From NCBI GenBank assembly GCA_020444175.1, contig JAHLLM010000044.1, positions 1 through 45,106 on the forward strand: 45,106 nt of DNA. The letters are read 5' to 3'. Positions within the stretch are counted from its first letter, which is position 1, and each line of letters opens with the position of its first letter. Positions 118 through 35,274 of the stretch are shown piece by piece. A program made the position numbers and the translations under genes. A model generated the notes under the pieces. It saw only the letters and a program-made list of their open reading frames with translations. It searched no databases and was not told where the DNA came from. This DNA is from Desulfobulbaceae bacterium (GTDB lineage Bacteria > Desulfobacterota > Desulfobulbia > Desulfobulbales > SURF-16).

Positions 118-1533
118 TTATTTTTTGTAGTCCTCTTTTCTGATACCAAACCGTTTCATCTTGTTGTACAGGGCTCTTGAATGTATTCCAGCTATAACGG
201 CAGCTTCTCCGATGCGTCCTTTTGTTTCCCCCAGCACCATTTGAATGTACTCTTTTTCCACCTGATCAACAACTTCCCTGCGAACCTCTGGAAGTGTTTT
301 CCCTTTCCAAAGACTCGTTTCCGTCTTGCCTGTTTCAGCAGTCTGGGGAAGAAATCCGTTTTCCCTATGAAATACGCTCGGTAAATCCTGCAGGCTTATT
401 TCTTTTGTTTTACAGATCAGCATGGCACGTTCAATAACGTTCATAAGCTCCCTGATATTACCAGGCCAGTCATAGTTATACAAAGCCTGCAGAGTCTGGT
501 CGGTAATGAGAACAATGTCCTTTGCTATCTTATACCTGTAGTAATTGATAAAACGCCGGGTAAGATTGGGTATGTCTTCACGTCGCTTGCGAAGGGGAGG
601 GATGGTCAAGGTCATAACGCTGAGCCTGTAAAAGAGATCCTTCCGGAAATTCCCCAGCTCTATCTCATTTTCAAGATCACGATTCGAGGCGGCAATAACC
701 CGGACATCAACCCATATGGATTTGTCTCCGCCAACCGGCCTGATCTCGTAATCCTGCAGAACCCGCAATAGTTTTGTCTGCAGATGCAAGGGCATTTCTC
801 CGATCTCATCAAGGAAAATAGTTCCACCATGGGCTTGTTCAAAAGCTCCTCTTCTGGAACGTGTGGCACCTGTAAAAGCGCCCCGGGAATGGCCGAATAA
901 TTCACTTTCCAGCAACTGTTCCGGAAGCGCCGCCATGTTTAACGCAATAAAGGGGCCGCCTGCCCGCGCGCTCTCCGCATGAATTGCCTTGGCCAGGTGT
1001 TCCTTGCCGACCCCGGTTTCTCCGAGAATGAGCAGGACAGAATCGCTGGGTGCAACCTGATGAACTTCATTAATAAATATCTGCATTGATTCACTGCTGG
1101 AAATAAAGTCAGAAAGATGCGGCTGCTTGTATCGTTTTCTGTCCAGCAGATCGAGCTTGACGAGTTGCAGCCGTGAATCGATCGTTGATTCTATTGCTTC
1201 AACAAGGCTTGTCAGTGAAACACCTGAATAGAGAACAACGTCGGCTCCAGCTGCCATTAATTTTGCATGTTCCTCCGATGAGTCAAAATCATGGATGATG
1301 ACTGTTGTCGGTGCCTCAGGAAGATTATTGAGTACTGCGATGCTCGAATCTACAGGTGGAGGGATAAGGGATTCGCTGATAACAATGATATCGGCGCAAC
1401 TCTGCACCACATGCTGCCAGGGATGAGCAATCCGGCCGCAGCATTCAATCTGAGTTTTGGTCGCCACCAGGCTTTCTTCAAGATGGTCCTGCAGTTCCTT
1501 GTTGTCAATTGAGATAACCAGCCGTGACAGCAT
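118..1533 (-). CDS. Sigma-54-dependent transcriptional activator with pseudo-receiver domain
   Basis: 471-aa NtrC-family enhancer-binding protein that would use ATP hydrolysis to open sigma-54 promoters. From the ATG at 1533: receiver-like domain about 1-120; AAA+ domain with Walker A GETGVGKE (171-178), the sigma-54-contacting GAFTGA loop (218-223) and Walker B ending LDEIGE (241-246); Fis-type HTH at the C-terminus (about 425-465). The usual phospho-acceptor Asp of the receiver appears replaced by Ser53 (context DIIVISESLIPPP), so control by phosphorylation is doubtful. I chose ATG 1533 because GGAGGGG lies just upstream; an in-frame TTG at 1551 is less likely. No partner kinase is adjacent. 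It is divergent from the sigma-54 promoter at 2250 and is the obvious candidate activator for that operon (inference). Confidence 0.93.
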   Translation of the reverse strand: MLSRLVISIDNKELQDHLEESLVATKTQIECCGRIAHPWQHVVQSCADIIVISESLIPPPVDSSIAVLNNLPEAPTTVIIHDFDSSEEHAKLMAAGADVVLYSGVSLTSLVEAIESTIDSRLQLVKLDLLDRKRYKQPHLSDFISSSESMQIFINEVHQVAPSDSVLLILGETGVGKEHLAKAIHAESARAGGPFIALNMAALPEQLLESELFGHSRGAFTGATRSRRGAFEQAHGGTIFLDEIGEMPLHLQTKLLRVLQDYEIRPVGGDKSIWVDVRVIAASNRDLENEIELGNFRKDLFYRLSVMTLTIPPLRKRREDIPNLTRRFINYYRYKIAKDIVLITDQTLQALYNYDWPGNIRELMNVIERAMLICKTKEISLQDLPSVFHRENGFLPQTAETGKTETSLWKGKTLPEVRREVVDQVEKEYIQMVLGETKGRIGEAAVIAGIHSRALYNKMKRFGIRKEDYKK

Positions 1534-1562
1534 ACATTCCCCTCCGAACAATAATAAGAAAT

Positions 1563-1704: not shown

Positions 1705-2249
1705 CGAATTGTTTATAACCATATAAGAAATTAATTTCCTTTTTTTATCATAAAGCATTAACTGCCGCCTTATAAAAAGAAATTTAATTCTTGTTTTTAA
1801 CTATCTATTTTAAATTATGATTACCACTCATCTTCAGCCTTTTTATAGGTCATTCCCGCGAAAGCGGGAATCCAGGAGGACTAGCCAACTACTCCGGATT
1901 CCCGCTTTCGCGGGAATGACTTTTGTGTAGACAGTATTTTTTTTGAATTATTAATGCATTACAGTATCTGCTGCAAGACTGGCTGAGTTTCAGTGGTAAT
2001 CACATTTTAAATAGTCGTTTTGCTCAATTACATCGAATAAACAGGATATTATGAATTGTTCTTGCCTTCCTTTCTTATCATTTGCAGTGTTTATTTAAAA
2101 GTTTATTGAGGCATGCTTCTGCTGGTGATTAAAATCAGTATTTTAATTCTCGTTTTTTGGGAATTATTGTCATGCCAGATTTGATATTTTGAAATAATAC
2201 ATTAATGAATTCAGCAAGTTATCATTTGAAATGAACGATTTTTCTGAAA
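1705..2249. other. AT-rich intergenic region upstream of the sigma-54 promoter
   Basis: No gene seen. It holds the palindrome at 1849-1920 and otherwise AT-rich sequence. This is where enhancer (UAS) sites for the sigma-54 operon and the activator's own promoter would be expected. I looked for an obvious dyad typical of NtrC-family binding sites and could not pick one out with confidence. Confidence 0.5.
1849..1920. repeat. Palindromic intergenic repeat family C
   Basis: Near-perfect inverted repeat: GTCATTCCCGCGAAAGCGGG on the left and its complement on the right, about 25 bp per arm, around an unrelated centre. Each arm is itself a small hairpin (CCCGC GAAA GCGGG). Elements of this look are common in proteobacterial intergenic DNA. 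Transcribed, it would form a very stable stem. Confidence 0.8.
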
Positions 2250-2265
2250 TGGCACTGGTGTTGCT
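2250..2265 (+). promoter_or_regulatory. Sigma-54 (-24/-12) promoter
   Basis: TGGCAC-TGGTG-TTGCT matches the sigma-54 consensus TGGCAC-N5-TTGCW at every specified position. The predicted transcript start is about 2276, leaving a leader of roughly 125 nt that contains a dispersed repeat. It faces the peptide/speD-like operon and lies about 0.7 kb from a divergent sigma-54 activator gene. I saw no comparable match elsewhere in the window on either strand. Confidence 0.85.
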
Positions 2266-2303
2266 AGATCATAATTGCCTTTCAGGAATAGTTATAAGAA
2301 AGG

Positions 2304-2386
2304 CAACTGTTCAGCTGTACAAATCTGGTGCACATCTGAACAGTTACAGTCTGGAGTTAAGGCCCGTTTCGGTCTTGGCTGAATCG
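2304..2386. repeat. Dispersed repeat family A, degenerate inverted copy in operon leader
   Basis: In reverse orientation this matches family A: CACATCTGAACAGTTAC, then CTGGAGTTAAGGCCC, then GGCTGAAT, aligning with 23541-23600. The left part forms a hairpin with arms AACTGTTCAG / CTGAACAGTT. It lies wholly between the sigma-54 promoter and the start of the small peptide gene, so it would be transcribed as 5' leader RNA. Confidence 0.65.
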
Positions 2387-2401
2387 TTAAGGAGAAAGAG
2401 T

Positions 2402-2569
2402 GTGAAAAAGGATAAACCTCAGAGTTTAAAGAACAGAAAGAACAAACAGGCAGGCATTGACAGTGATTATAATCACAATGATTTTTTCAACGATGATGAC
2501 GAGAAGTGGTCACGTTCCAAAAAGAAAAATAAACGAAATAAACCGGCCCATAAAAACTGGGAATATTAA
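2402..2569 (+). CDS. Small highly charged 55-aa protein, first gene of sigma-54 operon
   Basis: Family not recognised. The GTG start at 2402 is chosen because AAGGAGA stands 8 nt upstream, the best Shine-Dalgarno in the operon. Codons upstream of it in the same frame belong to the repeat-derived leader. The protein is very rich in Lys, Asn and Asp: a basic N-terminal third, an acidic middle (NDDDEKW), a basic KKKNKRNK stretch and a C-terminus ending NWEY. It has no signal peptide, membrane segment or Cys. It is 22 nt upstream of the speD-like gene. Possible roles are a peptide substrate or carrier for the ATP-grasp and acyltransferase enzymes, a polyamine- or nucleic-acid-binding protein, or a leader-type regulator. 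None is proven. Confidence 0.65.
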   Translation: MKKDKPQSLKNRKNKQAGIDSDYNHNDFFNDDDEKWSRSKKKNKRNKPAHKNWEY

Positions 2570-2591
2570 CCTCTACTGATCAGAGAAAACC

Positions 2592-3020
2592 ATGCAAAGT
2601 ATAGCGCAACAAATACCGGTAAGAAGCGGCCACGAAGGCCTGTTTGCTATGAATGAAGCAATTGCCCGGAACGCATGGGGCATAGCCTCGGCCATTGACA
2701 TTTACAACTGTGATTTTCACAAAATTCGAGACGCGGAGGTTATCCGTCGATTTGTTGTTGAGTTATGCGATCTCATTGAAATGAAACGTTTCGGGGAGAC
2801 CCAGGTCGTTCATTTTGGTGAAGATGAGCGTGTAGCGGGGTTTTCAATGGTCCAGCTCATCGAAACTTCATTGATTTCCGGACACTTTGCCAACCAGACC
2901 AATGCCGTGTACCTGGATGTCTTCAGTTGCAAACCTTACCTTCCGGAAACTGTCCAGGAATTTGCTCAAAGATATTTCGAGGGCACCCACAGCAATCTCA
3001 ATATCAGTTTGAGGCTTTAG
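2592..3020 (+). CDS. SpeD-like pyruvoyl-dependent decarboxylase (S-adenosylmethionine decarboxylase family)
   Basis: 142 aa, close to bacterial class 1B SpeD proenzymes, which self-cleave at an internal Ser to make a pyruvoyl cofactor. By hand alignment to the Thermotoga enzyme (numbering from memory), the self-processing and catalytic residues are kept: Ser93 (pyruvoyl Ser63), Ser85 (Ser55), His98 (His68) and Cys113 (Cys83, in DVFSC). The usual ESHLT.H.WPE motif has become TSLISGHFANQ, losing the Glu before the cleavage Ser, the following His and the Trp-Pro-Glu of the substrate pocket. The fold is therefore probably active on something other than, or besides, SAM. No spermidine synthase gene is nearby. 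The start has only a weak AGAGAA site, and the stop is 1 nt before the next ATG, suggesting coupling. Confidence 0.75.
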   Translation: MQSIAQQIPVRSGHEGLFAMNEAIARNAWGIASAIDIYNCDFHKIRDAEVIRRFVVELCDLIEMKRFGETQVVHFGEDERVAGFSMVQLIETSLISGHFANQTNAVYLDVFSCKPYLPETVQEFAQRYFEGTHSNLNISLRL

Positions 3021-3021
3021 C

Positions 3022-3990
3022 ATGTTGCGCGTACGAGTATGCGAAGACCTGGACGAGTGTGCGTATCTTTGGGGGCGAGTCTGGCCGCAGACATGTTTTT
3101 TTGATCTCTGGCCTGTCAGGGCAAGCTTTGCCACCTGTTTTAAACGACTGCCCTATTTTTTAATTGCTGATCAATCCGGAAAAATTGAAGGAATGATGGC
3201 CTTGAACTGGATTGAAGAAGAGCAGTATTTCGGCCATTTTCCCGGAGAAACCTATCATGGTCAAACATGGCTTGAGCAAAACAGGATTCCTGCGCGTTCT
3301 CCACAGGTTTTGAACATTCTTCTCGACAGTATGCCGGGGCCTGTACAATTGCGTTATCTTGCCGGTGAATCCGTCCTCATGGATGGTTCACCTTTGGCTG
3401 TGGACGAAATCGGATACCTCTTTTTGCCCCGTAATTACAACTTTTCCTTCCAAAACTACATGCAATCTTTTTCAGGTAAATCCAGGAAAAAACTGGCACG
3501 TGAATCAGCCGGCTTACAACATTTCGGGGTTACCTGGCGCTACAATCATTTCCCGGATGTGGATCAGCTGTTTCGGATGAATATGGCGAACTTCGGTGAG
3601 TGGTCTTATTTCAAGGATTCCAGGTTTCTGGCCTCATTTGAAAAACTGGTGCACTGGCTTTCGCAAAACAACATGCTGCGGGTAACAACCCTTTCACTTG
3701 GCGGTACTGTTGCGGCCATTGACATCGGGGCGCTTTGGAACAGATCATATACGGTGTTGGCCGGTGCCACCCATCCGGATTTTCCAGGGGTTGCGAAGAT
3801 GATCAATTTCCATCACATGGAATGGGGCTGCAGGCAAGGTCTTGAGATTGTAGATTTTTTGTGCGGTGATTTCGGTTGGAAGAAACGTTTCCATTTAACA
3901 AGCCGCCCCCTCTACAAAATAGACCGTCAGGCCGAGTGGAATGTTTTCCCGGAATTTACTGTCCCTTCGCTCTACGCCAATGCACAGTAA
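3022..3990 (+). CDS. GNAT/FemAB-like acyltransferase (CelD/BcsL-type)
   Basis: 322-aa cytoplasmic protein with the features of the CelD/BcsL acetyltransferase group (a double GNAT/FemAB-type fold). There is an N-terminal GNAT-like half (about 1-150), a basic FSGKSRKKLARE helix (about 151-165) that resembles the 'kt.R...R' turn of this group, and a C-terminal half with L..GG.VAA and the family-like DFLCGDFGWKKRF block near 285-297. Such enzymes move an acyl or aminoacyl group to an amine. It starts 1 nt after the speD-like stop and overlaps the ATP-grasp gene by 11 nt, so it belongs to the same pathway. The donor and acceptor cannot be read from sequence. Confidence 0.72.
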   Translation: MLRVRVCEDLDECAYLWGRVWPQTCFFDLWPVRASFATCFKRLPYFLIADQSGKIEGMMALNWIEEEQYFGHFPGETYHGQTWLEQNRIPARSPQVLNILLDSMPGPVQLRYLAGESVLMDGSPLAVDEIGYLFLPRNYNFSFQNYMQSFSGKSRKKLARESAGLQHFGVTWRYNHFPDVDQLFRMNMANFGEWSYFKDSRFLASFEKLVHWLSQNNMLRVTTLSLGGTVAAIDIGALWNRSYTVLAGATHPDFPGVAKMINFHHMEWGCRQGLEIVDFLCGDFGWKKRFHLTSRPLYKIDRQAEWNVFPEFTVPSLYANAQ

Positions 3991-5248
3991 AGACAAAGTT
4001 CTCGTGGTTGGCACCACTGCAGACTACATCCACTGGATCCGGCAGGCCAATCCCGGCAGGGCGATTTTTTTGACGGCCCCTGAAATCAGACATCCGGCCA
4101 ATGAGGCGAATCCTCATCCGGTTGAAGAAATACTTTGCGACCTTGAAGAACCTTCCCATGCGCTGCATGAATTGATCAATCATCTGCAGAACTGGGATCT
4201 CACCGTAAACGGCATTGCCTGCTTTGACTGTGAATCCCTGGAGCTGGCAGCATATCTTGCCATGGAACTGAATCTGCCTTATCCTTCGGTTGAAAGCATC
4301 CGTCTCTGCCGTGACAAATTCGTCACCAAAACAATCTGGCGGAAAAATCAGATTCCCTGTCCCCGCGTCAAACTCGTACAATCTGCCGGCGATGTATCTG
4401 ATTTTCTCATGGAGCTTGACGCACCCTGTGTTTTAAAGCCTGTAACAGGCAGCGGCAGCGAGCTTGTTTTCCGCTGCTCAACCCGGAAGGATTGCGACCA
4501 GGGAACCCGGCTCATACTTAAAGAGTTAAAAAACAGAAAATCGGATCGACTCTACAGAAGTATGACAACATGGTTTGTGGTTGAAGAATGTCTCAGGGGC
4601 GACGAATTCAGCTGTGATTTTTTTATCAGGAATAATTCTGTTCGGATTATTCGACTGACAAAAAAAATAAAGGACCCGGATAAGCCGTTTGGAACCATCT
4701 CCGCATATATGCTTTCCGACTGCAAAACAGAAGGACTGGACAAGAATGCACTTGAGCGTATTCTCTGCAGGGCTGCAGGAGCTTTAGGTGTTTCCGAAGC
4801 AATATGCATGGTTGATTTTATTGCTTGCGGCGGAGAGATTTCCTTGCTTGAGATGACGCCTCGACCCGGTGGAGATTGTCTGCCCTTTCTTTTAAAGCAA
4901 TCCATGGCGCTGGATATTTTAACGTACACCCTTGATTTTGCGCAGCGGAAAAAGTCAAGTCTGCCCAAAAGCAACGGCAGGTATGCTGCGCTTCGTTTCC
5001 ATGCAAATTGTCCCGGGAAAATAACAAAAATTAACGACAATCTGTTGCAACAGGATTCCCGTGTCATTGAAATCCACCGACTCAGGCAACCGGGACATCA
5101 TGTCACCATGCCTCCCCACGATTATGAGTCGTGGTACCTGGGGCACGTTATCTTTAAACCGTTTCCGGACATCGATCTGGATGTTCAAACCAGGGAACTC
5201 AGTCAAAGTTTAAACGTGGTAATGGAAAATGACGGCCACTCTTTTTAG
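3980..5248 (+). CDS. ATP-grasp domain ligase
   Basis: 422 aa from ATG 3980, which overlaps the end of the preceding gene by 11 nt; an in-frame ATG at 3941 would give a longer overlap and is less likely. Layout: N-terminal Rossmann-like domain (KVLVVG near residue 6), ATP-grasp start RDKFVTKTIWRKNQIPCPR, nucleotide-binding CVLKPVTGSGSELVF, VVEECLRGDEFSCDFF, and metal-binding LLEMTPRPGGDCLP near residue 300. ATP-grasp enzymes activate a carboxylate as acyl phosphate and join it to an amine or thiol. This family includes amino-acid and peptide ligases. In context it could join an amino acid or polyamine to a small molecule or to the 55-aa peptide (inference). Confidence 0.85.
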   Translation: MHSKDKVLVVGTTADYIHWIRQANPGRAIFLTAPEIRHPANEANPHPVEEILCDLEEPSHALHELINHLQNWDLTVNGIACFDCESLELAAYLAMELNLPYPSVESIRLCRDKFVTKTIWRKNQIPCPRVKLVQSAGDVSDFLMELDAPCVLKPVTGSGSELVFRCSTRKDCDQGTRLILKELKNRKSDRLYRSMTTWFVVEECLRGDEFSCDFFIRNNSVRIIRLTKKIKDPDKPFGTISAYMLSDCKTEGLDKNALERILCRAAGALGVSEAICMVDFIACGGEISLLEMTPRPGGDCLPFLLKQSMALDILTYTLDFAQRKKSSLPKSNGRYAALRFHANCPGKITKINDNLLQQDSRVIEIHRLRQPGHHVTMPPHDYESWYLGHVIFKPFPDIDLDVQTRELSQSLNVVMENDGHSF

Positions 5249-6599
5249 TATACGCTCGCAGTCCGGAGATATTCGATCATTTCTTAATCAAAACAATCCC
5301 CTCATGCCGGAGGAAGAGTTGCAGGCTTTTGTAAAGCAGTTTTTCAGGGAGAAGTCGCGCTATACAGCCTGCCTTGATCAGCACCGGACGCCGCTTTATC
5401 TAATTGACCCGGATGTTTTGAAAAAAAAATCCAGACTATTCCAGGAGGCTTTTGGCAAAGAGCTCGGCAACGTGTCCTTTTATTATGCCGTGAAGAGCAA
5501 CAACCATCCTGATGTTGCACGAATCCTTCTGCAGACGGGGGTAGGGCTTGATGTTTCAAGCGGGATGGAGCTGGAGATGGCGGTGAGTCTCAATGCCCCT
5601 GATGTTGTTTTCAGCGGGCCAGGCAAAACTGATGAGGAATTGAAGCTTGCGGTTGAAGAAGCTGATCGCCTTGTTGTCTTGATTGACAGCTTTAGCGAAC
5701 TGTCCCGGTTGCAAAAAATAGCCGCTTCCCAAAAGAAAATGGTCCGGATCGGTGTCCGGCTGAGCACAAACCCAACTGGGCTTTGGCGTAAATTCGGCAT
5801 ACTTGTCGAAGAGCTGCCACAATTCCTGCAGAAGGCATGCGACTGCCGAAACTTACGGTTTCAAGGTCTGCAGTTTCATTCAAGCTGGAACCTGACACCA
5901 GATGCCCAGGTTGATTTCTTAGAGTCACTTGGACGAATAATAGCCCAGTTGCCGCAACAAATCCAAAGACAGATACAGTTTGTTGATATTGGCGGCGGAT
6001 TCTGGCCGCCCCAGGGAGAATGGCTCCAGGAAGCCGGTACCCAGGCCGGCATCAGAAGAATGGCTCTTGGCCTGCATCCGGGGAAAAACAAAAAACATTA
6101 CAGACTGCCCGCCCTTCCTATTGAAGAATTTGCCAGGCATATCAGTCTGGCGGTGAAAAAACACATATTCCCACATGCTCCTTTGTGTCGAATCTGTTGT
6201 GAACCCGGGCGCTGGCTCTGCAATGACGCCATGCATATCCTGCTCTCGGTTGTGGATAAAAAAGGGGAGGATCTGGTTATTACTGATGGAGGAACCAATG
6301 CCGTGGGGTGGGAACGTTTTGAAACGGATTACTTTCCTGTTCTCAATTTCAGCCGACCGGCCCTGACGGAAAAAAACTGCCATATCCTCGGTTCACTCTG
6401 CACTCCCCATGATATCTGGGGATATAACTACTGGGGAGAGGATATTCAACCCGGCGACATCCTGATGATTCCGACCCAGGGGGCCTATACCTACAGCCTC
6501 CGCCAAAATTTTATAAAGCCTTTACCCGAGGTGTTTGTACTTGAAGAAGGGGCAAGGGTAGGGAGCAGCATAACTAAACAACTCTTCTCAAATCAGTAA
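5229..6599 (+). CDS. PLP-dependent decarboxylase, diaminopimelate/ornithine decarboxylase-like (alanine racemase fold)
   Basis: 456 aa, slightly long for LysA because of an extra ~50-residue N-terminus. Fold-type III decarboxylase marks: PLP-binding Lys in YYAVKSNNHP (about residue 87), FHSSWN where LysA has its His-x-Gly-Ser stretch, the glycine loop VDIGGGF, phosphate-binding CCEPGRW, the inter-subunit active-site Cys in GSLCTPHD and GAYTYS near the C-terminus. LysA acts on meso-diaminopimelate; close relatives use ornithine, arginine or carboxynorspermidine. The LysA 'CESGD'-like motif is changed to CTPHD, so substrate specificity is open. The start overlaps the ATP-grasp gene by 20 nt with TGGAAA upstream. 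Last gene of the sigma-54 operon; its 3' end overlaps the convergent mscS gene by 26 bp. Confidence 0.88.
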   Translation: MTATLFSIRSQSGDIRSFLNQNNPLMPEEELQAFVKQFFREKSRYTACLDQHRTPLYLIDPDVLKKKSRLFQEAFGKELGNVSFYYAVKSNNHPDVARILLQTGVGLDVSSGMELEMAVSLNAPDVVFSGPGKTDEELKLAVEEADRLVVLIDSFSELSRLQKIAASQKKMVRIGVRLSTNPTGLWRKFGILVEELPQFLQKACDCRNLRFQGLQFHSSWNLTPDAQVDFLESLGRIIAQLPQQIQRQIQFVDIGGGFWPPQGEWLQEAGTQAGIRRMALGLHPGKNKKHYRLPALPIEEFARHISLAVKKHIFPHAPLCRICCEPGRWLCNDAMHILLSVVDKKGEDLVITDGGTNAVGWERFETDYFPVLNFSRPALTEKNCHILGSLCTPHDIWGYNYWGEDIQPGDILMIPTQGAYTYSLRQNFIKPLPEVFVLEEGARVGSSITKQLFSNQ

Positions 6600-7467
6600 T
6601 AGCCTCAGTTACCGGAGGGTCCAGATGGACATCGAGTTGAGGAAAGGCAATCGTTATATTGGCGTCTTTAAAAGCAAACCATATTTCCTTGCGCAAATCG
6701 GACATGTATATGCGCTGCATCCATGGGTTGTCAATACTGACATAGACGCCGAAATCCACTGATGAATTGCCAAAGTCCTGCATCAGAATTCTCGGTTCGG
6801 GGTCCGGCAATCGCCATGGGATATCTCTTGCTGTTTGCTCCAGTACATCTATTACCTTTTTCATATCAGAGCCATACGTTACACCGACAACCACCCCGAG
6901 ACGAAATTCATTGTCACGCAGGGTATAATTTTTAACAGTGGATTGGGAGAAGATAGAGTTCGGCATAATAAGTTCTTCCTCTTTCCAGGTTCTGACCACG
7001 GTTGTTCTGATTCGCATGTCGATTACTTTTACAACCGTTCCTTCCACCTCGAGAATATCACCAGGTTTTATCGTTCTTTCCAGGAGAAGGAGAACGCCGG
7101 ATACAAAATTCTGAACCACATTCTGCATTGCAAATCCGATGGCAATCGCAAATACCGCACCAGCCGCAAAAAGTGCACTTAAATTGATGCCGATGGTCTG
7201 CAGGCCTATGCCGAAACCAACAAGGACAATAGTGTAATGCATGAGACGCAGCAAGGCTTCCAGTGTTCCTTCCCGTATGTCGAACCTGTGGGAAAGACCT
7301 TTTTTAAGACCGCGTTGCAAAACAAATGACACCCCGACGGTGCAGATGACTATGACGATAAAAACAGTAAGGGAAAACAGAGTCACTTCGGTGCCGGATA
7401 TTGCAAACAAGGGAGTTGTAAAGAATTTTGCAACTTGTGGTGAAATTTCATTTATATTTATATTCAA
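6574..7467 (-). CDS. MscS-family mechanosensitive ion channel
   Basis: Small-conductance mechanosensitive channel, about 297 aa, which would open under membrane tension to release solutes on osmotic downshift. It has an N-terminal hydrophobic helix (TLFSLTVFIVIVICTVGVSF), a second helix, the glycine/alanine-rich pore helix region AVFAIAIGFAMQNVVQNFV, then the beta domain (PGDILEVEG.VV.VIDMRIR). The start is uncertain: TTG 7467 has GAGGA just upstream, while TTG 7512 would add 15 residues without a Shine-Dalgarno. No ATG is available in frame. It converges on, and overlaps by 26 bp, the decarboxylase gene. Confidence 0.88.
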   Translation of the reverse strand: MNININEISPQVAKFFTTPLFAISGTEVTLFSLTVFIVIVICTVGVSFVLQRGLKKGLSHRFDIREGTLEALLRLMHYTIVLVGFGIGLQTIGINLSALFAAGAVFAIAIGFAMQNVVQNFVSGVLLLLERTIKPGDILEVEGTVVKVIDMRIRTTVVRTWKEEELIMPNSIFSQSTVKNYTLRDNEFRLGVVVGVTYGSDMKKVIDVLEQTARDIPWRLPDPEPRILMQDFGNSSVDFGVYVSIDNPWMQRIYMSDLRKEIWFAFKDANITIAFPQLDVHLDPPVTEAITDLRRVV

Positions 7468-7693
7468 GGGGTCCTCGGTGTGGATATTTTGTTGAAATTG
7501 TTTAACAAGCAAATAAATGACTTTTCATCTGCGGCAAGAGTAACGAGATTTATACAAGGTAACTGGGCAACGTGCGAAGCGAGGCGTGGTATCGTTGCAC
7601 GACATATTCAGTTCCTATAACTTGTTATTCTAGTAAAAAACCATCATAAATAACAGTGGACGTTTATAAAAATGGAGAGGAACGGGCAACTCT

Positions 7694-35132: not shown

Positions 35133-35274
35133 TTTGCCTCTATACAATTCTCAGTAGCCAACCTCTAGACTCCCGCCTCCGCGGGAGTGACGGCGGGCTT
35201 GGTTATGTCATTCCCGCGGAGGCGGGAATCCAGTATTGGAAACTTGACGACCGGAAAGGGGCAATTTTTAACTG
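35133..35274. repeat. Dispersed repeat family B, copy 2 (142 bp)
   Basis: Begins at the base following the recJ stop and matches 1563-1704 with few differences. In this copy the right arm ends GGGAATCCAG instead of GGGAGTCTAG, which reduces the symmetry. Confidence 0.85.

Follow-up and report, generated by a model that had tools for sequence, protein, structure and literature searches.

A conserved sigma-54-associated gene module of a Desulfobulbaceae bacterium and its candidate role in making an aminoacylated amine

What might a bacterium make with two unrelated decarboxylases, one pyruvoyl-dependent and one PLP-dependent, an ATP-grasp ligase and a GNAT-fold transferase encoded side by side behind a short charged ORF? 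The question is raised by a locus (Table 1) in a 45,106-nucleotide stretch of Desulfobulbaceae DNA (GenBank assembly GCA_020444175.1, contig JAHLLM010000044.1), referred to here as the window. The initial annotation, made from the sequence alone, could match the gene set to no standard polyamine, lysine or cell-wall pathway, and this still holds: the window's genome carries elsewhere two other PLP-family genes, judged by size to be LysA-sized and SpeA-sized, and no description of the set was found in the literature searched, chiefly openly accessible papers. We regard the locus as specifying a genetically well-defined, apparently undescribed pathway. Our preferred reading, which we consider evenly balanced between right and wrong, is that of a sigma-54-switched cytoplasmic pathway leading to an aminoacylated amine, that is, a polyamine conjugate. 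It starts from what is directly observed, namely the genes and the order in which they recur, the pairing of promoter and activator, and catalytic residues that are conserved.

Table 1. Features of the locus, in positions of the window.
Feature	Position	Strand	Details
Divergent sigma-54 activator (bEBP) gene	118-1551	-	Pfam Sigma54_activat 232.7 bits, HTH_8 36.1; likely ATG start 1533
Sigma-54 promoter-like site TGGCACTGGTGTTGCT	2250-2265	+	Score 0.97 of maximum
Charged 55-codon ORF	2402-2569	+	55 aa, GTG start, AAGGAG ribosome site upstream, C-terminus KNWEY
SpeD-like pyruvoyl decarboxylase gene	2592-3020	+	Pfam AdoMet_dc PF02675, 77.8 bits (cut-off 25)
GNAT-fold (Fem-like) transferase gene	3022-3990	+	Pfam Acetyltransf_6 PF13480, 69.3 bits (cut-off 22)
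ATP-grasp ligase gene	3980-5248 (ATG 3980; ORF opens 3941)	+	Pfam ATP-grasp_4 PF13535, 53.6 bits (cut-off 27)
PLP decarboxylase gene	5229-6599	+	Pfam Orn_Arg_deC_N PF02784, 108.5 bits (cut-off 23.4)

The five genes follow one another head to tail downstream of the near-consensus sigma-54 site. A single nucleotide separates the SpeD-like from the GNAT-fold gene, the ATP-grasp gene, read from its ATG, overlaps the end of the latter, and the PLP decarboxylase gene overlaps the ATP-grasp gene by 20 nt. Because of this spacing and of the conserved gene order described below, the five genes probably form one sigma-54-controlled unit, as had been proposed from the outset. Candidate promoters were scored with a weighted consensus of our own, and on this scale the score of the window's site was equalled in 0.5% of 200 dinucleotide shuffles. 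Sites scoring at least 0.84, a threshold chosen after the first site scores were known, were found in 39 of the 42 activator-bearing loci, against 1.8 expected from shuffles; predicted sites at these loci are in excess of chance, and the near-ideal promoter of the initial annotation was borne out.

The divergent gene, which encodes a receiver-like domain, an AAA+ domain with GAFTGA and a Fis-type HTH, is the likely regulator of the operon. With GAFTGA kept in 40 of the 42 divergent activators, both features of a sigma-54 operon with a dedicated bEBP, a GG-N10-GC promoter and a GAFTGA activator, are present (39/42 and 40/42, respectively). The putative phospho-acceptor column of the 42 activators, picked by pattern and without a structure, holds S in 35, N in 5, and D and H in one each, and no receiver family appears among the Pfam matches of the window's activator. 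As the receiver-like domain appears to lack the usual phosphorylation Asp, the activator probably senses a ligand or a partner rather than a kinase signal. The initial annotation spanned positions 2250 to 6599, and this likely regulator gene falls outside it.

A search for the same gene order in other genomes, which the initial annotation had suggested, covered 59 stretches, from 58 genomes, that carry this ATP-grasp gene; 55 of the stretches include upstream sequence. Homologues of the four enzymes recur in the same order across dozens of related bacterial genomes, an outcome by which the initial annotation withstands the refuting case it had named, homologues that never co-occur: the GNAT-fold gene is present in 56 and the PLP decarboxylase gene in 57 of the 59 stretches, and among the 55 loci with upstream sequence speD is present in 43 and the divergent activator gene in 42. 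The module enzymes retain one another as neighbours. Spread outside the phylum via plasmids was considered and rejected, all ATP-grasp and PLP matches being below 60% identity (22.8-28.1% among the matches listed), and no ATP-grasp relative was confirmed in the viral contigs searched. One scan of genome contigs returned a single locus, so the module may also occur in other phyla.

In the pathway that we propose, a SpeDC would convert L-ornithine to putrescine, probably the amine acceptor, by means of its self-made pyruvoyl group. The ATP-grasp enzyme would activate a carboxylate as an acyl phosphate and join it to the amine, the PLP enzyme would strip the carboxylate from the already conjugated amino acid to leave a new free amine, and the Fem-like enzyme would cap an amine with an amino acid drawn from aminoacyl-tRNA; the proposal does not fix the sequence of these three steps. 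The overall scheme of the initial annotation, in which amino acids are decarboxylated and the amines ligated or acylated, fits this outline and is amended at three points: SpeD is probably an ornithine decarboxylase, the transferase is probably aminoacyl-tRNA- and not acyl-CoA-dependent, and the PLP step may follow conjugation.

The first of these enzymes keeps its place in the SpeD family; its residues, trees and phage contexts suggest that it most probably acts on L-ornithine, as a pyruvoyl decarboxylase of the SpeDC type. An alignment of 33 of the 44 available module SpeDs has S93, H98 and C113, the catalytic Ser/His/Cys of the SpeD fold, invariant in 33/33, and Q88, T92, F99 and Y107 are equally invariant; the latter would match the diagnostic Gln/Thr/Phe/Tyr, by our own mapping of the positions from the published text. 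In the accessible portion of Li et al. 2023 (PMC10407285), these four residues are diagnostic of SpeDC and several second SpeDs of SpeD/SpeE-type bacterial clusters are shown to be ornithine decarboxylases; a counter-case is the second SpeD of V. chlorellavorus, located beside speE (with speB), which is an arginine decarboxylase. The phage phiN3 type of SpeD is shown to be a true AdoMet decarboxylase in the accessible part of another report (PMC9992855), and in its relative from phiM12 three of the four residues are present, Gln, Phe and Tyr, the Thr alone being missing. The AdoMet decarboxylase model TIGR03330 gave the window's SpeD 28.7 bits, below its cut-off of 75.65, and the module protein differs from the canonical SpeD that adjoins speE in genomes G412, G288, G320, G600, G264 and G387. 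In a tree, module SpeDs are nested among phage SpeD homologues with supports of 0.49-0.99; by pattern-based assignment over contigs several of which are near-duplicates, 21 of 28 phage homologues have a canonical SpeD in their vicinity, and 14 of 28 a SpeE-like gene. As far as the accessible portion of PMC10407285 goes, the module enzyme shares with SpeDC the intact Ser/His/Cys and phage relatives often near SpeD1 and SpeE and, on our mapping, may share the Gln/Thr/Phe/Tyr set, whereas its gene precedes Fem-like, ATP-grasp and PLP genes and is not beside speE. An intact upstream speD is missing from 12 of the 55 loci, so putrescine may have another source or may not be the acceptor. In five genomes (G801, G684, G681, G792 and G683) no SpeD was matched; compensation by another ornithine decarboxylase was rejected for them after a search of the PLP fold, with no clear replacement among their PLP-family matches. 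In G412 and G738 a PLP-family gene adjoins the canonical speD.

The 55-aa peptide reported at the head of the operon is, judged by its conservation, a genuine protein and part of a real set, although profiles recognise it in only 21 of the 59 stretches. A relative in locus L040 is 33% identical and has a comparable K/R-rich, W-containing end, and the leader peptides of four other, closely related loci are under purifying selection (dN/dS about 0.05-0.15). The 18 aligned peptides are Lys/Arg-rich with varied, mostly W-containing tails, a Trp falling among the last 12 residues in 15 (manual count); the absence of any match of these 18 to Pfam or NCBIfam led us to reject a known family. In all 21 module matches the peptide either sits immediately upstream of the leading enzyme gene or forms a fusion with it, in two loci an in-frame fusion to SpeD. 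L137, in which no GNAT-fold gene was found, retains the peptide immediately ahead of the ATP-grasp and PLP genes. Copies away from the module occur in G809, G893 and G864. Some of the 38 stretches without a match hold other charged ORFs, and four have too little upstream sequence. As 38 of 59 stretches give no match, the peptide is not an obligatory cis-encoded part; we see it as an accessory of the system in some lineages, perhaps a carrier.

In a fuller version of that idea the peptide would be the carrier or scaffold of the whole route, to which the ATP-grasp enzyme would attach an amino acid; the PLP enzyme would decarboxylate this in bound form, and the product would then be released. Such chemistry has precedents: LysX loads an amino acid onto LysW, and BtrJ onto the carrier protein BtrI, where BtrK decarboxylates it. 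The constant position of the peptide, its retention in L137, the purifying selection, the Trp near the C-terminus and the rank of BtrK with the solved structures closest to the PLP decarboxylase all speak for this arrangement, but we think it unlikely given the stretches with no peptide match, the fusions to SpeD, the off-module copies and a peptide alignment in which no conserved C-terminal carboxylate residue was seen. LysW-type amino-group carriers are small acidic proteins ending in EDWGE, whereas the peptides here are Lys/Arg-rich with other tails.

The second enzyme was initially designated a GNAT acyltransferase; its predicted structure (AF2 model, pLDDT 91) looks nearer to Fem-type aminoacyl transferases. 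The model has the tandem-GNAT fold of the FemX type, its best PDB matches being Sba18/Sbb17 (Z 18.0-18.4) and FemX (Z 17.1-17.6), a lead of less than one Z unit that amounts to a tie, and the structural match is moderate (TM about 0.5-0.6). With Sba18/Sbb17 and FemX it shares this predicted fold at Z 17-18 across about 262-276 residues, whereas identity is about 9-16%, the gene neighbours differ and tRNA use is predicted here. The protein is probably a tandem-GNAT Fem-like transferase that depends on aminoacyl-tRNA rather than acyl-CoA. A Lys follows Trp at W286-K287, K287 being invariant in 49 GNAT-fold sequences, and could correspond to FemX Lys305. A PDB sequence search with the GNAT-fold profile returned chance matches only and no Fem structure. 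Further GNAT-fold aminoacyl-tRNA-dependent transferases, VlmA, DhpH, PacB and Orf11, are named in the accessible part of a review (PMC12945691).

Fem-like and ATP-grasp enzymes could instead add amino acids and a diamine to peptidoglycan, lipid or exopolysaccharide. FemA and MprF join FemX among the fold matches, and the PEP-CTERM FemAB model is weakly matched in 15 of the 49 members; against such envelope modification, which we judge improbable, the curated FemAB profiles stay under cut-off (PF04339, 14 of 27 bits; TIGR03019, 19.9 of 260.35), the natural-product relatives match best, albeit within the tie just noted, and visual inspection of the recurrent neighbours in the first 25 stretches picked out no wall, lipid or glycosyltransferase gene.

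The best solved relatives of the ATP-grasp protein are 4dim and BL00235 (3vot, E 1.1e-27), which places the ligase, by profile comparison, nearest to L-amino acid ligases. The PLP enzyme, with both Pfam domains (PF02784 and PF00278) above cut-off and an AF2 model of pLDDT 91, is by homology an alanine-racemase-fold PLP decarboxylase related to FslC, SbnH and BtrK and to LysA. K89, C391 and D395, which we take to be the PLP lysine and the catalytic Cys and Asp, are invariant in 42 sequences. The initial label, DapDC-like, agrees with the best curated profile, that of LysA (TIGR01048, 161 bits, ahead of an exosortase-associated model at 125.8), but the score is under the cut-off of 297.9, and a deep profile ranks FslC, SbnH and BtrK slightly above DapDC, the lead of BtrK being 2.4 bits; with a five-sequence profile a DapDC outranked SbnH and BtrK. 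Structure was discarded as a discriminator of substrate, since fold comparison ties all relatives (Z 33-39). By deep profile the enzyme stands a little closer to decarboxylases that act on conjugated amino acids than to LysA, and it may work after conjugation. Where LysA carries a CES motif, the module enzyme reads LCTPHD, an LCTPxD motif as in BtrK, and this genome has another gene of the family with the size of LysA. Like the butirosin pair BtrJ/BtrK, the module combines an ATP-grasp ligase with an alanine-racemase-fold decarboxylase, but no acyl carrier protein was recognised and ornithine-decarboxylase-like and Fem-like genes are additional.

The rank of FslC, an N-citrylornithine decarboxylase, and of SbnH as top solved relatives in the deep profile also recalls rhizoferrin (FslC/FigC) and staphyloferrin B, and a rhizoferrin-like route could join citrate to ornithine or putrescine, the PLP enzyme then decarboxylating a citryl-ornithine-type intermediate. 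A same-strand citrate synthase gene does come next in L036, L037, L038 (partial), L039, L057 and L058, and another follows the lone ATP-grasp gene of L041. These are a minority of loci, however, and the gene could be a housekeeping one; neither an NIS synthetase nor a siderophore transport gene came to light when the recurrent neighbours in the first 25 stretches were inspected by eye, and the curated FslC model (NF041039) gave 90.7 bits, far short of its cut-off, 500, so that we give this route very little weight. Ordinary supply of polyamines or lysine, the operon being a variant of putrescine/spermidine or lysine metabolism whose gene neighbours mislead, would account for SpeD-type and ornithine/DAP-type decarboxylases and the LysA profile match, but is highly improbable given the sub-cut-off LysA score, the mutual retention of the module genes, the separately encoded LysA- and SpeA-sized relatives and the finding that at least six carriers have speE at a different site, next to another SpeD.

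If the aminoacylated-amine pathway is right, one small-molecule route would bring a pyruvoyl ornithine decarboxylase together with ATP-grasp ligation and with bond formation that depends on aminoacyl-tRNA. A bolder extension, which we offer tentatively and find doubtful as a whole, is that of a new metabolite class: an aminoacyl-tRNA-derived, ATP-grasp-joined peptide, decarboxylated after conjugation, on a putrescine core, built in some lineages on or attached to a novel charged peptide carrier and induced through ligand-sensing sigma-54 control. The analysis also reveals a set of short, highly charged proteins tied to these genes, and because the likely regulator adjoins the pathway genes, the pathway is testable. 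A defence system was considered as well and set aside, since none of the four enzymes has a match in PADLOC; RtcR-like models are matched by the activator across its AAA+/HTH part only.

The operon proposed in the initial annotation turned out to be a strongly conserved unit. Relatives of its ATP-grasp protein (E <= 1e-40) occur in 10 of 257 genomes belonging to the window's order, in 14 of a sample of 395 from its phylum and in 37 of 291 from a second order, three sets that overlap slightly, with one further carrier in a MAG titled Desulfobacteraceae. The mapping covered 59 stretches of 58 genomes, one genome being represented by two halves. The ATP-grasp gene has the GNAT-fold gene before it in 56 stretches and the PLP-decarboxylase gene after it in 57. 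The exceptions are a lone ATP-grasp gene with neither partner (L041), a locus without the GNAT-fold gene (L137) and two contig ends (L068, L069). Of the 55 stretches whose upstream sequence reaches 1.2 kb or more, 43 have an intact SpeD gene, 42 a divergent activator gene and 4 a TetR gene upstream. In the window the module genes are tightly packed, with a 1-nt gap plus overlaps; all four enzyme families named initially were confirmed by Pfam and the sigma-54 site was borne out, while the divergent activator gene had been left out of the unit.

Features of the module and its surroundings in the window
Feature	Position	Strand	Remark
Sigma-54 activator gene	118-1551	-	divergent from module
REP-like inverted repeat GGATTCCCGCTTTCGCGGGAATGAC	1849-1920		two exact facing copies, upstream of operon
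Sigma-54 promoter-like site TGGCACTGGTGTTGCT	2250		GG-N10-GC spacing as in sigma-54 promoters
55-codon ORF (small charged peptide)	2402-2569	+	
SpeD-like gene	2592-3020	+	Pfam family confirmed
GNAT-fold gene	3022-3990	+	Pfam family confirmed
ATP-grasp gene	3980-5248	+	Pfam family confirmed
PLP-decarboxylase gene	5229-6599	+	Pfam family confirmed
MscS-like channel gene	6574-7512		named by eye; ends against last operon gene
Third copy of GGATTCCCGCTTTCGCGGGAATGAC	35207-35231		2 mismatches

Sigma-54 sites scoring at least 0.84 were detected in 39 of the 42 loci with an activator, where shuffled sequences predict 1.8, and in 3 of the 13 loci without one (0.6 predicted). The GAFTGA motif is present in 40 of the 42 activators. 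Their N-terminal domain is receiver-like, yet no receiver family appears among the activator's Pfam hits and the column that we read as the phosphorylation site holds Ser in 35 of 42 and Asp in only one, which suggests control of the activator by a ligand or partner. Four loci (L059, L063, L068, L147) lack the divergent sigma-54 activator and have a TetR-type regulator gene immediately upstream of their enzyme genes.

Six genomes (G412, G288, G320, G600, G264, G387) encode another SpeD beside speE and away from the module, which makes the module SpeD a distinct paralogue. Ser93, His98 and Cys113 are kept in all 33 aligned module SpeDs, as are Gln88, Thr92, Phe99 and Tyr107, and the Gln/Thr/Phe/Tyr set is given as diagnostic of L-ornithine-decarboxylating SpeD homologues by Li et al. 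2023 (PMC10407285). Relatives on viral contigs (40-60% identity) show the four residues in 25 of 28 cases and lie close to a canonical SpeD in 21 and to a SpeE-like gene in 14, as judged by our own patterns and with some near-duplicate contigs included. The module SpeDs form one tree group (support 0.78) nested among phage proteins (supports 0.49-0.99). Counting against the ornithine reading, the SpeD of phage phiM12 has three of the four residues, and its relative in phiN3 is a true AdoMet decarboxylase according to PMC9992855; on balance we consider the module SpeD a likely ornithine decarboxylase. On phage contigs L224-L234, L236, L237 and L240 a canonical SpeD, a module-type SpeD and a SpeE-like gene are closely clustered; in such bacterial and archaeal clusters several second SpeDs are demonstrated ornithine decarboxylases, but that of V. 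chlorellavorus is an arginine decarboxylase (PMC10407285). Two genomes (G749, C1:3440005-3440775; G856, C10:391547-392305) carry genes of about 310 codons in which SpeD1 and SpeD2 are fused, resembling published SpeD-SpeDC fusions; the one in G856 is on the opposite strand about 1.1 kb before the peptide, ATP-grasp and PLP genes.

The predicted structure of the GNAT-fold protein (pLDDT 91) has its best matches in Sba18 and Sbb17 (Z 18.0-18.4), two peptide synthases that depend on aminoacyl-tRNA, and in FemX (Z 17.1-17.6). FemA (16.4) and MprF (14-15) follow, and tandem GNATs that use acetyl-CoA, for example mycothiol synthase (Z 13.7), come lower. Fem-family sequence profiles scored below their cut-offs. 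Its invariant Trp-Lys pair (W286-K287) could, judging from the motif rather than from coordinates, be the equivalent of FemX Lys305 and DhpH-C Lys329, which are described in a review (PMC12945691).

The closest matches to the ATP-grasp profile are 4dim, which carries the name phosphoribosylglycinamide synthetase, and BL00235, an L-amino acid ligase. With a PLP profile built from 42 sequences, FslC (N-citrylornithine decarboxylase; 139.6 bits), SbnH (137.8) and BtrK (130.8) rank above the best diaminopimelate decarboxylase (128.4), a small lead whose order differs with a 5-sequence profile; ornithine decarboxylases reach 97.3 bits and lower. The substrates of FslC, SbnH and BtrK are amino acids already conjugated, and the 42-sequence profile alignment shows an LCTPxD motif common to the module enzyme, SbnH and BtrK. 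By structure comparison alone all of these enzymes are tied. The best curated model for the module protein, LysA, scores 161 bits, under its cut-off of 297.9, and the window's genome encodes two further family members, of LysA and SpeA size, which makes it unlikely that the module enzyme is the housekeeping LysA.

Many loci encode short proteins rich in Lys/Arg and Asp/Glu, placed after the sigma-54 site and ahead of the first enzyme gene. No matching family was found in Pfam or NCBIfam, and our peptide profiles match 21 of the 59 stretches, always directly before the first enzyme gene; two of these matches are in-frame N-terminal parts of SpeD and one (L137) lies outside the training set. In four close loci dN (0.062-0.095) is below dS (0.42-1.45, one pair saturated), so in these loci purifying selection acts on the ORF at the protein level. 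A search of the 291 genomes with the profile gave 18 sites spread over 16 genomes; 14 of these are at the module (13 of which were in the query) and four lie elsewhere, one of them weak. In the window's order it hit 2 of 257 genomes, both at the module and in the query. For the window's own peptide the single clear relative is that of L040 (33% identity). Given its selection, its placement at the module and its occurrence in 21 of 59 stretches, the peptide is a real and linked, yet optional, component. A second copy in genome G864 (L218, C1:133000-150000), one of the four elsewhere, adjoins a DksA-type gene and a sigma-54 activator, and genes that we read as speA, casdh, casdc and speB are nearby.

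The module enzymes are of known kinds, but their combination fits no described pathway known to us, and the literature searched held no description of the gene set. The most economical model, with the chemistry of each step suggested by family membership, is a cytoplasmic pathway: the ATP-grasp and Fem-like enzymes would link amino acids and putrescine (or a different amine), and the PLP decarboxylase would do the trimming. As rivals to this joining route we keep a role of the peptide as carrier, a citryl-amine route of the rhizoferrin type and envelope modification. The module offers good prospects of direct test.

Neighbour clustering covered the first 25 stretches, where the recurrent genes besides the module were citrate synthase (5), DksA-type (3) and TetR-type (3), with MscS-like channel genes (3, one beside the window operon) and MgtC-like genes (2) identified by eye; none of the recurrent genes was recognised as an exporter or a siderophore receptor. 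A citrate synthase gene lies downstream on the same strand of the module in L036, L037, L038, L039, L057 and L058, and of the lone ATP-grasp gene in L041. Histone-deacetylase-domain genes occur near the module in L057, L058 and L066 (the last by clustering). D-Ala-D-Ala-ligase-like genes are also present there, and L057 and L058 have in addition a lysine 2,3-aminomutase-like gene; these extra genes are possibly a second amino acid module. DksA-type genes adjoin the module in L021, L066, L067 and L149, and the other MscS-like genes are close to it in L060 and L064. The REP-like repeat had no counterpart in 100 shuffles.
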